Source: Nonomuraea dietziae
GTDB taxonomy: Bacteria > Actinomycetota > Actinomycetes > Streptosporangiales > Streptosporangiaceae
Assembly (NCBI RefSeq): GCF_014195505.1
Contig: NZ_JACIBV010000001.1
Span: 558,001-622,000 of the forward strand
Reading direction: 5' to 3'
DNA: 64,000 nucleotides
Shown here: positions 37,263 to 40,970 of the stretch, piece after piece
How positions within the stretch are numbered: position 1 is the stretch's first letter
How the letters are laid out: the number at the start of each line of letters is the position of its first letter
Made by a program: the position numbers and the translations under genes
The notes under the pieces: generated by a model
Seen by the model: the letters and a program-made list of their open reading frames with translations, nothing else
The model's database searches: none
What the model was told of the DNA's origin: nothing

Positions 37263-38107
37263 TCAGTGCATGTGCCACACACCGTGGGCCCGGGTGAAGT
37301 CGCCCGCTGCCAGCGCGTCGCGTGGGATGAAGATGTAGACCAGGCCGTTGTCGCCGAGTTGAGCGTCCGGTTTGGAGTCGATCTGGGCCAGGAGCAGCCA
37401 TTGAGTGGGCAGCGTGCTCGGTTCGGCGGTCGCGCAGTGTCGCCACGGATCGTCCTGCAGGGGGTCGGCGTAGCCGAGCAGGCGGTGCCGGGGCCGGTCA
37501 TCGTCGTCCAACGGGGGATGGAACTCGATGAACGCCGCGAACTCCTCGCTTGGGTTGGTCGGGTCATCGCCGGTGAGGTCCAGGTCGGTGAGGTCGTGGT
37601 AGAAGGGGCTGTCCAGTGGGGGCAACGACGGATCCACCGCCGGGATCACCGCGCGGTGCGGGAGCGTCTCGGTTCCTGCGGGCGGCTGAGCGACGATCAG
37701 GTCGCGGGCCTCGTCGTTGGCGGCCTCGGCCTCCGCGGCCCACGCCTGCATGGTGTGCGATCGGCGAACCGCTCAAGAAACTGCATCGTGGTCTGTGCCT
37801 GTTCGTCGTTCAGCACAACCTGGGGGAATTCCAGCATGCCGGGGGTCATGGACAGTCCGCCTGTCCGGTCGACGACGCAGGCCAGCAGGGACGGCAGCGA
37901 CTGAACCCATGCCTGAACATAGGCGTGGGTTCGCCTGAGGGTCTGCCCTGCCGGGATCAGCGGGACGGTCTGCTCTGCGCATTCGCCGGTGTCGTCGTTG
38001 TGCAGGCACAATCTCACGCCGAGGGATCCGTCGCTCGCGAAAACGAGGCCAGGCTCGGCAAGCTCCAGGCGTGTCTGCGCATGCTTGGCCGCTCCACCGT
38101 TCCTCAT
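37263..38107 (-). pseudogene. DUF1963 (YwqG-like) gene, frameshifted
   Basis: The C-terminal half (37263-37751) has the YwqG/DUF1963 features: HRLLGYADPLQDDPW, TQWLLLAQIDSKPD, DNGLVYIFIPRDALAAGDF. The N-terminal part lies in another frame (37697-38107) ending near QTTMQFLERFA. A single shift near 37745-37755 would join MQFLERFAD to the AWAAEAEAANDEARD helix. Either a true frameshift mutation or an assembly error. YwqG-like proteins have unknown function. Strand minus, convergent with nothing obvious. Confidence 0.6.
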
Positions 38108-38206
38108 TCTTCGACAGTGCCAAACAGTTGTTCCCTATCTCGTCATTGATGAGGCTCAATGGTGGACGCGACGATGTGTCGGCAAGCGACGACCACAGGG
38201 AGAACG

Positions 38207-38374
38207 ATGGCGAACACAAGCGCGGTGAACAGGTCGACGCTCACGGGCAGGCCGCTGTTCGACGACCACGACGTGCCGATCGAGCGCGCCCTGCTCGAGC
38301 TGCGATCGTTCGAGCACGGCGTCACGATGCATCGCTACGCCGTCCGGGATGCAAGGGAGGCGAGCTCGTGCTGA
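38207..38374 (+). CDS. Small ORF before the MBL hydrolase
   Basis: 55 codons from ATG 38207 with GGGAG just upstream. The sequence FDDHDVPIERALLELRSFEH looks like a real protein segment. Its stop overlaps the start of the MBL gene by a few bases, so translation may be coupled. It could be the N-terminus of a lost protein; no family recognised. Confidence 0.4.
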   Translation: MANTSAVNRSTLTGRPLFDDHDVPIERALLELRSFEHGVTMHRYAVRDAREASSC

Positions 38375-39207
38375 GGCAGATCGCGGATGGTGTGCTGGTC
38401 CATGAGAGCGAGTTCTGCCAGAGCAACGCCGTTGTCGTGCAGGGCCGGGATGGCGTGTTGCTCATCGACCCCGGGGTGCAGGACCACGAAATGGCGTGCC
38501 TCGCGAGCGACGTGTCCGATTTGGGGCAGACCGTTGTGGCAGGCTTCTCGACGCATCCGGATTGGGATCACCTGCTCTGGCACCCCCGCCTCGGCGCGGC
38601 CCCTCGTTACGGCACGGCCCGATGCGCGGCCACCGTGCGGGAGCAGCTGTCCGACCCGGGTGCGAAGGCCGAGATAACCGCCCACCTGGCCCCGACGGGC
38701 ATCGCCGACCAGGTCCCGCTCGACCTGTACGGCCTCATCACCGCCCTGCCCGCCGAGACGGCGCGGATTCCCTGGGATGGCCCTCACGTCCGGATCATCG
38801 AGCACCAAGCGCACGCACCGGGCCATGCGGCGCTGTTCATCGAAGAACGCGGGGTTCTCGTCGCCGGCGACATGCTCTCTGATGTCTTGGTTCCGATGCT
38901 CGACCTGGACGACACCGCTGACCCGATCGAGGACTACCTCGCCGCGCTGCGGCTGCTGGAGGGCGTGGCGGGCGACGTGGATGTCCTCGTCCCCGGCCAC
39001 GGGTCAGTCGGCGAAGCCGATCAGGTACACGCACGGATCGAGCGGGATCGAGCGTACGTGCTCGCCTTGCGTGAGGGCCATGTTCCCAGTGACCCGCGGG
39101 TCGGCCCATCGGCCAAGCCCGGCTGGGAGTGGGTAAGCGATGTGCACGACGGGCAAGCCCAGCGCCTCGCCCGAAGAAGCGAGCGCGACGGGACGCCCGG
39201 CTTCTGA
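38368..39207 (+). CDS. MBL-fold metallo-hydrolase
   Basis: 279 residues from GTG 38368, with GGGAGG eight bases upstream. Landmarks of the metallo-beta-lactamase fold: GVLLIDPGVQ, FSTHPDWDHLLW (a THPDWDH variant of HxHxDH, with the first His kept), HQAHAPGHAALFIEE, GVLVAGDMLSD (Asp ligand) and DVLVPGHGSVG (last His). The second His of HxHxDH is Pro, so one zinc site may be altered. Substrate unknown. It stands alone, followed by a dyad at 39343. Confidence 0.88.
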   Translation: MLRQIADGVLVHESEFCQSNAVVVQGRDGVLLIDPGVQDHEMACLASDVSDLGQTVVAGFSTHPDWDHLLWHPRLGAAPRYGTARCAATVREQLSDPGAKAEITAHLAPTGIADQVPLDLYGLITALPAETARIPWDGPHVRIIEHQAHAPGHAALFIEERGVLVAGDMLSDVLVPMLDLDDTADPIEDYLAALRLLEGVAGDVDVLVPGHGSVGEADQVHARIERDRAYVLALREGHVPSDPRVGPSAKPGWEWVSDVHDGQAQRLARRSERDGTPGF

Positions 39208-39460: not shown

Positions 39461-40765
39461 TCACCCTCGCGTGACGGACAACCGCATGGAGGTGTAGTCG
39501 AAGGTGATGGCAAGGGGTTCGAAGAACTCGTGGGAGAAGTTGGCGATCAGATCGAAGCCGAACTGGGCGGACGCGCCGGGGCCTGGCATCCCGGGAACGA
39601 CCTTCTCGAAGGCGTAGCCGCGTACGTCGCGCCTGACCACCCTGCCCAGACTCAGGCGCTCGGCTCTGATCCGGTAGCGCTTGTGCCCGTTCTGCTCGAT
39701 GGGATTGTCGTGGTCCACCTTCAGGCCCGCCTTCTCGGCGATCTCCAGGGTGGTCTCGATCCCGCTGGCGATGCCGCCGGTGTCGACGGTGACCATCCGC
39801 GGCCCGTAGTCCCCGAGGCTGCCCAGCGTGCAGGGAAAGTGGTCTCCGGCCAGCCACAGCGGCAGCCGGTCGCCGTGGCGCACCGGCGGTGGAGTGCTCT
39901 CCTTGCGGCGCAGGATCAGGGCGCGACCGGCGTAGTCCATCGTGGTCAGGAAGTGGTAGAAGATCGTCGTTCCGAACGCGCCCGCCGCAGGTGACCCGTC
40001 GGGCAGGGGTGGCCGGTCTACGTCGCTCCATTGCACCGGAAGGTTGCGGATCTCGATGTTTCCGATCTTGAACGACTCCAGGACGCCGACCCGGATCGTG
40101 AGCGGCTGGTTGTTGGCGTACCCTCCCGACCAGCTGGCCAGGGGACGCACGCCCGCCTCCTCTGCCGCCTCCTGCGACAGGTCGAGCGTCGCGTAGGTGT
40201 CCAGCCAGAATCGTTTGGGCGTCCCGCCGTTCACGACGGCCTCGACGCCGGGTACCGGGTCCAGCGTGAAGAACGGCACGCGCGCGCTCCGCGCCCCGTG
40301 TATCTGCCAGGGTGTGCCGCTGATGTGGGAGTAGAGCGTGGCCAGGGCCTGGTCGCGGGGGCGGTCGATGCTCTTGAGCAGCGGGACCGCGGGGGCGAGC
40401 CGGTCCTGCCGCACGAAGCACTCGGCCAGCCGTTGCGCCGAGGCGAGGTCACCGGGCCGCAGCGCGAGGGCCTTGGACAGATGCCGCTCCGCGTCGCCGA
40501 ACCGGTTGGCCAGCAGGGCGATGTAACCGATCTGCGCCCACGCGTGCACGTTGCCCGGATCGTTGCGCAGGAGACGCCGGTAGCCGCGTTCGGCGGCGGC
40601 GAACCGGCCCCCTTCGAAGAGCTGATCGGGGTCGTCGACGGCGGCGTGCGCCGCGCTCGGGACGGAATCCAGGAGGGGAAGGATCGCGCCCGCAGCCGCC
40701 GCCGACCCCGCTCGTCGCAGGAACGTCCGCCGGTCGACGTCGTGGAACTCCGCTCGTATGGGCAT
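39461..40765 (-). CDS. Tat-exported retropepsin-like protein with TPR domain
   Basis: 434 residues. The twin-arginine signal DRRTFLRRAG (residues 11-20) and following hydrophobic stretch predict Tat export. Residues about 45-140 form TPR-like helices (AERGYRRLLRNDPGNVHAWA). Two aspartyl-protease-like halves follow. The first has FWLDTYATLDLS (near 189) where DTG/DTA is expected, so Gly is Tyr. The second has MVTVDTGGIASGI (near 325) with an intact DTG. Two retropepsin lobes on one chain with only one canonical motif are unusual; activity is uncertain. No signal of a partner gene. Confidence 0.8.
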   Translation of the reverse strand: MPIRAEFHDVDRRTFLRRAGSAAAAGAILPLLDSVPSAAHAAVDDPDQLFEGGRFAAAERGYRRLLRNDPGNVHAWAQIGYIALLANRFGDAERHLSKALALRPGDLASAQRLAECFVRQDRLAPAVPLLKSIDRPRDQALATLYSHISGTPWQIHGARSARVPFFTLDPVPGVEAVVNGGTPKRFWLDTYATLDLSQEAAEEAGVRPLASWSGGYANNQPLTIRVGVLESFKIGNIEIRNLPVQWSDVDRPPLPDGSPAAGAFGTTIFYHFLTTMDYAGRALILRRKESTPPPVRHGDRLPLWLAGDHFPCTLGSLGDYGPRMVTVDTGGIASGIETTLEIAEKAGLKVDHDNPIEQNGHKRYRIRAERLSLGRVVRRDVRGYAFEKVVPGMPGPGASAQFGFDLIANFSHEFFEPLAITFDYTSMRLSVTRG

Positions 40766-40861
40766 ACCGGGCTCCTCGTGTACTGGTCGAGATGTCGTCC
40801 TCCGCAGTGGTCACTGCGGGCATGAGGACAAGCAACACCAGGGGGTGCTTGATTGACATAA

Positions 40862-40970
40862 GCGCACGACGACGGACTGGTCGCGGACTCCTGCCGGCCT
40901 GCCCCCGAGGAGCTGCACGCCGCGGCCGAGGCCGTCCGGCTGTGCCCCAGCGGGGCGCTCGACAACCTCT
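40862..40970 (+). pseudogene. Ferredoxin, C-terminal fragment (second copy)
   Basis: About 36 codons: DGLVADSCRPAPEELHAAAE, then VRLCPSGAL, the C-terminus of a P450-type ferredoxin with its last cluster Cys. No start or N-terminal Cys cluster in frame. Adjacent to an IS-like scrap, so probably cut by transposition. Confidence 0.65.

Follow-up and report, generated by a model that had tools for sequence, protein, structure and literature searches.

A predicted Tat-exported, two-lobed aspartic-protease-fold family of Streptosporangiaceae with a proposed role in cell-wall-antibiotic stress

Within the 64,000 nt of the Nonomuraea dietziae genome analysed here (contig NZ_JACIBV010000001.1, positions 558,001 to 622,000; hereafter, the window), one gene encodes a member of a protein family that is, on sequence comparison, fast-evolving and patchily distributed among the Streptosporangiaceae. 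We think it probable that the product is a Tat-exported envelope-stress protein of these bacteria, which retains the catalytic dyad, carries a tyrosine in its cleft, and acts as the output of an antibiotic-stress two-component system, binding and perhaps cleaving a peptide of the cell wall. The fold, the clades, the conservation and the shared upstream elements are the computed part of this explanation. The fixed Asp-Thr-Tyr (DTY) state, the pseudoprotease majority of the family and the link to putative cell-wall-resistance operators are the noteworthy features, and the regulatory context is probably the more important part.

Architecture and predicted fold of the window protein

The features of the gene and its product are as follows, in window coordinates.

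39461..40765, minus strand: open reading frame with ATG start, stop codon included, for a predicted Tat-exported TPR plus two-lobe aspartic-protease-fold protein of 434 aa
40640..40765, minus strand: Tat signal region, residues 1-42 (DRRTFLRRAG), from TIGR01409; disordered in the model
40325..40636, minus strand: TPR domain, residues 44-147, with TPR_19 and TPR_14 above cut-off and model helices at 46-147
39890..40312, minus strand: lobe 1, residues 152-292, from PF13650 at 174-258 and the model
40193..40201, minus strand: altered triad D189-T190-Y191 (GAC ACC TAC) of lobe 1; D-T/S-Y in 27 of 139 complete relatives
39971..39979, minus strand: psi-loop motif hydrophobic-hydrophobic-Gly of lobe 1, A263-F264-G265; G265 invariant in alignment A1
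39464..39880, minus strand: lobe 2, residues 296-434, from HHalign of lobe 1 against lobe 2 and the model
39776..39784, minus strand: canonical triad D328-T329-G330 of lobe 2, from sequence and alignment
40833..40863, minus strand: operator-like element GCTTATGTCAATCAAGCACCCCCTGGTGTTG, whose end is 67 nt upstream of the start codon

A sequence-only reading of the window had described a twin-arginine signal, a TPR region and two protease-like lobes, and profile searches and modelling recovered each of these parts. The signal scored 18.4 bits against TIGR01409 (cut-off 16.7), with residues 1-42 modelled at a pLDDT below 50, and the TPR region matched TPR_19 with an E value of 1.7e-9. Lobe 1 is a member of Asp_protease_2 (PF13650; E 1.4e-9, 39 bits against a gathering score of 24.3), a family matched by all 31 members of alignment A1 at E values up to 0.01. 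Lobe 2 of the window protein had no match to PF13650 and stayed below the Pfam cut-offs, and in NCBIfam it reached only a sub-threshold score to TIGR02281 (16.8 against 57.95 bits); its profile nevertheless aligned with that of lobe 1 at an HHalign probability of 95.9. The eukaryotic Asp family (pepsin, A1) was absent among the Pfam matches of the protein down to E 1. The motifs quoted in that reading were also correct, with D-T/S-G present in lobe 2 only and DTY in its place in lobe 1. The psi-loop reads AFG in lobe 1 and, by alignment, IAN in lobe 2, where the verrucomicrobial relatives have LAG.

The AlphaFold2 model (pLDDT 86.3, pTM 0.84) has the expected aspartic-protease fold with paired lobes, and the predicted fold is that of a two-lobed, single-chain pepsin. 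Pepsins matched it with Z scores of 16-17 over about 240 residues, and mycobacterial Rv0977 with a Z score of 15.9. The earlier label ‘retropepsin-like’ fits only in part, since the two lobes together resemble a single-chain pepsin; the PF13650 and TIGR02281 retropepsin-like families differ from the window protein in that it has two lobes per chain, the second under the cut-offs, and DTY in the first. The best match in the PDB was 9iy9 (Z 28.1 over 362 residues, spanning the TPR part and both lobes). As a TPR-plus-two-lobe crystal structure already exists, two lobes on one chain are not unusual, contrary to what had been proposed from the sequence. The 9iy9 protein, annotated as a ‘putative endopeptidase’ or exported protein of Bacteroides fragilis, shares with the window protein a TPR-like N-terminus and two lobes, but is from another phylum, is only 16% identical, and has a canonical DTGA in lobe 1 where the window protein has DTY (HMMER alignment, lobe 1 only). 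No paper was found under its entry code in the open-access literature searched.

To our knowledge, few roles have been established for bacterial two-lobe aspartic proteases. The mycobacterial surface proteases PecA and PE_PGRS16 (Rv0977, 4ehc) are likewise exported actinobacterial proteins of this fold, but have a PE/PGRS N-terminus, type VII export and DTG/DSG motifs, in contrast to the Tat signal, TPR region and DTY of the window protein. According to the published account, the activity of PecA depends on its Asp (PMC6819658). Amuc_1434 of Akkermansia muciniphila is another aspartic protease from a bacterium; pepstatin A inhibits it, and one DTG and one psi-loop motif are described for it (PMC6982040). 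Amuc_1434 is verrucomicrobial, and the window family has verrucomicrobial DTG/DTG relatives (L028 and L029), a likeness by description only.

Distribution of the family and its active-site states

A scan of genome contigs identified 30 homologous loci in other genomes, nearly all from Nonomuraea, Actinomadura and relatives, along with two verrucomicrobial metagenome-assembled genomes at 32-33% identity. The genome of the window strain has two further full-length copies, making three in all (two DTY/DTG and one YTG/NFG). Because of these 30 loci, the two own-genome copies and the confident model, the window protein is not a chance reading frame. Searches with a family profile gave matches in 66 of 297 genomes from the taxonomic family of the window strain and in 76 of 297 from its order (the draws overlap), whilst in a draw of 296 genomes from the phylum it matched the window's own genome only; carrying genomes have one to five copies. 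In the lineage of the window genome, the family is common but patchy.

The lobe 1/lobe 2 states were assigned in 139 complete members, a set that omits 11 short or partial ORF matches; L013 and L025, which are frameshifted or partial, were dropped, and L027 was omitted from alignment A1. There were 25 DTG/DTG members, 27 with D-T/S-Y in lobe 1, 81 designated YTx (Y-T-x, including one Y-V-G), in which Tyr takes the place of the first Asp, and six others. Both D189 and D328 are present in 53 members, neither in 79 and one only in seven; the second-lobe Asp has gone in 79 of the 81 YTx members. The Asp of the DTY site is, by contrast, conserved in the family alignment, with both Asp residues kept in all 27 DTY/DSY members and D189 in 57 of the 58 members outside the YTx clade. 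The single altered DTG that had been singled out as unusual is indeed altered, and the evolution of the site is unusual, but the altered motif is what marks out one clade and is no peculiarity of this gene.

A tree of 114 members was computed with the motif columns removed, and in it the Y-T-x rows (60) formed a single clade with a support of 99. The DTY rows require two changes, with one DTG row, L010, nested inside the DTY clade. The YTx and DTY clades are separate on the tree, and Tyr therefore came into the triad twice, at different positions. D328 underwent no change over a tree length of 7.0 in the DTY clade and at least eight changes over 10.6 in the YTx clade, and this difference is our principal ground for supposing that the DTY proteins still use the dyad. 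Invariance of the Asp alone would be weak evidence, since 72 of 285 columns are also unchanged in the DTY clade. Among the positions that track DTY are R112, P221, Q245 and T326, and aromatic changes, such as W267 next to the psi loop, have become fixed among the YTx members. Median pairwise dN/dS was 0.42 for DTY and 0.68 for YTx (NG86, which is crude at this G+C content); these high values indicate that constraint is modest, and dN/dS was not taken as proof. That both Asp residues were kept while the Gly-to-Tyr change in lobe 1 became fixed suggests that the dyad remains in use, with a different or a more restricted peptide as its target.

The larger sister clade, YTx, has lost the dyad and is, to judge from its residues, a pseudoprotease group. 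The model of a YTx member shows the fold unchanged (Z 26.7 to 9iy9), and its structural matches include TAXI-I, a wheat xylanase inhibitor, and conglutin gamma. These two proteins and Bla g 2 retain the pepsin fold without the full catalytic machinery; all three are eukaryotic and lack a TPR region, and are an analogy only to the window family. DTY and YTx copies occurred together in 10 genomes (16 with DTY and 51 with YTx among 297 searched; Fisher p 3.5e-5, ignoring kinship), with copies in two of the 66 matching genomes left unclassified; this co-occurrence was not counted as evidence.

Upstream elements and gene surroundings

What is conserved at the family loci is the upstream DNA. No conserved neighbour was found in 31 regions (no other gene cluster in more than three loci), nor in 20 regions around YTx genes (no other gene cluster in four or more). 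The upstream regions contain three types of element, each a direct repeat with a spacing of about 11 bp, which is the spacing that OmpR-family regulators bind. Element A (GTGAC-N6-ATGAC) and element B (GTATC-N6-GTATC) lie upstream of YTx genes, and a GGAAAC-N5-GGAAAC-like element lies upstream of DTG and DTY genes (the DTY/DTG element). The elements are rare, with zero to five per genome, and a reversed control pattern gave no sites in each element search. The genomes searched for element A (seven), element B and the DTY/DTG element were picked as carriers of family genes, whereas a 54-genome set of the genus, also searched for element A, was not. In the counts that follow, the assignments to PF00144 (beta-lactamase-fold hydrolases), VanY, Ddl (D-Ala-D-Ala ligase), VanZ and alanine racemase were confirmed with profiles on between one and three examples of each kind, and the remainder come from BLAST comparison with reference proteins or from visual reading.

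Element A had 13 sites in six of the seven genomes, at six YTx genes (by coordinates), six response-regulator/histidine-kinase pairs and one Ddl gene. Across the genus set there were 71 sites in 33 of 54 genomes, and the 28 that were read comprised 22 at response-regulator and/or kinase genes, four at YTx genes and two at serine hydrolases. A divergent gene was called as VanY at 15 of the 22 regulator or kinase sites, and this protein is VanY-N (353.6 bits, cut-off 250); the adjacent regulator scored best against CseB and MtrA, above the VanR models, with all scores under cut-off. Element B had 19 sites in 13 of 20 genomes, upstream of eight YTx genes, six PF00144 genes, two VanY, one VanZ and one alanine racemase (the last at least 541 nt from its site), with one unassigned; the VanZ-like gene at L260 (PF04892, E 1.7e-15) begins 82 nt from the start of the element. 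The DTY/DTG element had 14 sites in eight of 13 genomes: seven at family genes, three at PF00144 hydrolases, three at two-component cassettes, in which a kinase or regulator is accompanied by a lipoprotein, a peptidoglycan-binding HlyD-like protein or both, and one unassigned. The operator-like site at L218 is flanked on one side by a PF00144 hydrolase gene and on the other by a divergent gene for a Tat-type D-Ala-D-Ala carboxypeptidase (family S13).

On these patterns the upstream elements are inferred to be putative operators, and close relatives of the window gene seem to be co-induced with cell-wall resistance genes of the vancomycin type. A close known counterpart of this arrangement is the vanRSY triad of Nonomuraea, with VanY-N and self-resistance to A40926: element A lies between the VanR-like regulator/kinase genes and VanY-N, and also upstream of YTx members of the family. 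The published account describes vanRSY triads in Nonomuraea, with racemase and Ddl genes alongside in rare related genomes (PMC8698665); its main text contains neither ‘aspartic’ nor ‘aspartyl’ and mentions no aspartic-protease-like member. We found no report in the open-access literature searched that ties an aspartic-protease-like member to vancomycin-type resistance genes.

For the window gene itself, a 31-nt matrix was built from the upstream regions of 40 relatives, with a seed that had been picked visually in those very sequences. The best site for this gene, 67 nt upstream of its ATG, scored 14.5 bits, and one in 1000 mononucleotide shuffles did as well. In a held-out test, 38 of 41 upstream regions, the window's included, were matched by at most two of 200 shuffles; the test dropped by hand 17 of the 58 non-YTx members, as tandem copies, distant outgroups or genes with doubtful starts. 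Two of the three misses, L016 and L032, adjoin response-regulator genes (PF00072 and PF00486), and L032 is the DTY paralogue of the window strain, transcribed divergently from a gene for an OmpR-type regulator. The third, L014, lies beside a lipoprotein resembling one in a two-component cassette. The element of the window gene is weaker than the relatives' version, and a search of its own genome that allowed up to three mismatches gave no other site. Element A is absent from that genome and element B has one site, before the YTx paralogue; the PF00144 relative encoded there is distant (35% over query residues 60-242). Searches of that genome by element pattern and with the PF00144 protein yielded no specific partner for the window gene. 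The case for its co-regulation thus rests on its relatives, the weaker motif and the neighbour of its paralogue.

Around other members, Ddl genes lie near YTx genes at L173 and L178, where the ligase is 90% identical to that of L197, with a more distant Ddl at L177, and PF00144 genes adjoin the DTG/DTG members L018, L021 and L030. In the window, the neighbouring ORF at 38071-39207 on the plus strand looks by eye like a metallo-beta-lactamase-fold hydrolase (HPDWDHLLWHP motif); no tie between it and the aspartic-protease-like gene was seen in relatives. A candidate flanking repeat at the family loci resolved as the upstream element itself. Even where loci are 92-95% identical, their homology extends no farther than about 150 nt from the gene, with the exception of the pair L001/L002, which are alike over several kilobases. 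In five locus pairs (L167/L168, L168/L169, L171/L176, L183/L184 and L173/L178) the gene DNA is 85-95% identical and the flanks farther out than about 150 nt are unrelated, as though each gene had moved without its surroundings.

Proposed role and alternative explanations

In the mechanism that we favour, envelope stress would cause a two-component system to turn the gene on, the likely inducer being cell-wall damage. The family genes would be outputs of OmpR-type systems, vanRSY-like and related, that answer damage at the D-Ala-D-Ala of peptidoglycan, with D,D-carboxypeptidases and beta-lactamase-fold hydrolases as co-outputs. The protein would be exported in folded form by the Tat system, its TPR domain may dock it to a partner, and under stress from cell-wall antibiotics its cleft would engage a peptide, or a protein, at the wall. 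The DTG forms should cleave; the DTY forms probably still cleave, with the Tyr narrowing the cleft, or may hold a peptide; and the YTx forms would only bind.

One point in this mechanism that can be challenged is the activity of the DTY forms, which may already be pseudoproteases, with Tyr191 blocking the cleft, that bind, inhibit or scaffold, as an intermediate between DTG/DTG and a YTx-like loss. We regard this as quite possible, if somewhat doubtful. The Gly of the triad is a canonical position, the clade-specific changes at P221, T326 and Q245 suggest that the cleft has been remodelled, the YTx clade shows that the fold can outlast the dyad, and pepsin-fold inhibitors are among the structural matches. 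However, no DTY/DSY member has lost either Asp, whereas members that have lost D189 vary at position 328, with N, S, P, L, G and T all seen there; L010, nested among the DTY proteins, reads DTG, and the tree gives no descent of YTx from DTY.

The regulatory part of the proposal can be challenged in two ways. The shared element could reflect DNA exchange among genes for secreted proteins rather than regulation, if gene, signal peptide and element moved or were copied together as a mobile single-gene module. The abrupt end of homology around the gene is as expected of such a module, as are the N-termini of two PF00144 proteins, L209 and L246, which are up to 82% and 70% identical, respectively, to YTx signal peptides. 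We consider it unlikely as the explanation, since regulator/kinase, Ddl, VanY and VanZ sites carry the element although their proteins are unrelated, and the spacing from element to start varies; moreover, mobility is compatible with regulation and does not exclude it. The other challenge, to which we give only a slim chance, is that the protein has nothing to do with envelope stress and is simply a secreted aspartic protease with a housekeeping or nutritional task, its element inherited with the gene or part of a general promoter. Bacterial two-lobe aspartic proteases do exist, as 9iy9 and PecA (PMC6819658) illustrate, and the patchy distribution and lack of a conserved neighbour would fit. 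Against it stand the rarity of the elements and the empty control, the fact that nearly all of the second sites read lie at cell-wall or two-component genes, and the presence of elements at unrelated genes, which shows that they are not merely carried along with the family gene.

A more specific version of the envelope-stress proposal, which we put forward as speculation and consider rather unlikely, is that the family is a new class of van-type regulon effector, made up of exported pepsin-fold proteins that would capture a peptide at the cell wall, either the peptidoglycan stem peptide or a peptide antibiotic; DTG forms would cleave it, DTY forms would cleave or hold it with altered specificity, and YTx forms would only bind it. 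If this were true, actinomycetes would have a defence based on sequestration or proteolysis beside the remodelling of D-Ala-D-Ala. The actinomycete family concerned includes glycopeptide producers, and a link to vanRSY-type operators would bring a new kind of protein into the actinomycete response to cell-wall antibiotics. The family also spans a canonical enzyme, a Gly-to-Tyr form that keeps the dyad and a dominant, conserved pseudoprotease, and so offers natural variants for the question of how a protease becomes a binding protein.

Some minor observations concern single loci. The PF00144 hydrolases L209 and L246 and the YTx proteins are unrelated secreted proteins with a common 5′ module, consisting of the upstream element and the signal peptide. 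Copies broken by frameshifts or stops were seen at L013, L025/L130, L131, L141 and L164, and could be decaying pseudogenes or draft-assembly errors. Lastly, tandem arrays mix active-site states, with DTY/DLG, DTG/DTG and ATG/DTG at L137, and DTG/DTG and DTG/NAG at L023.
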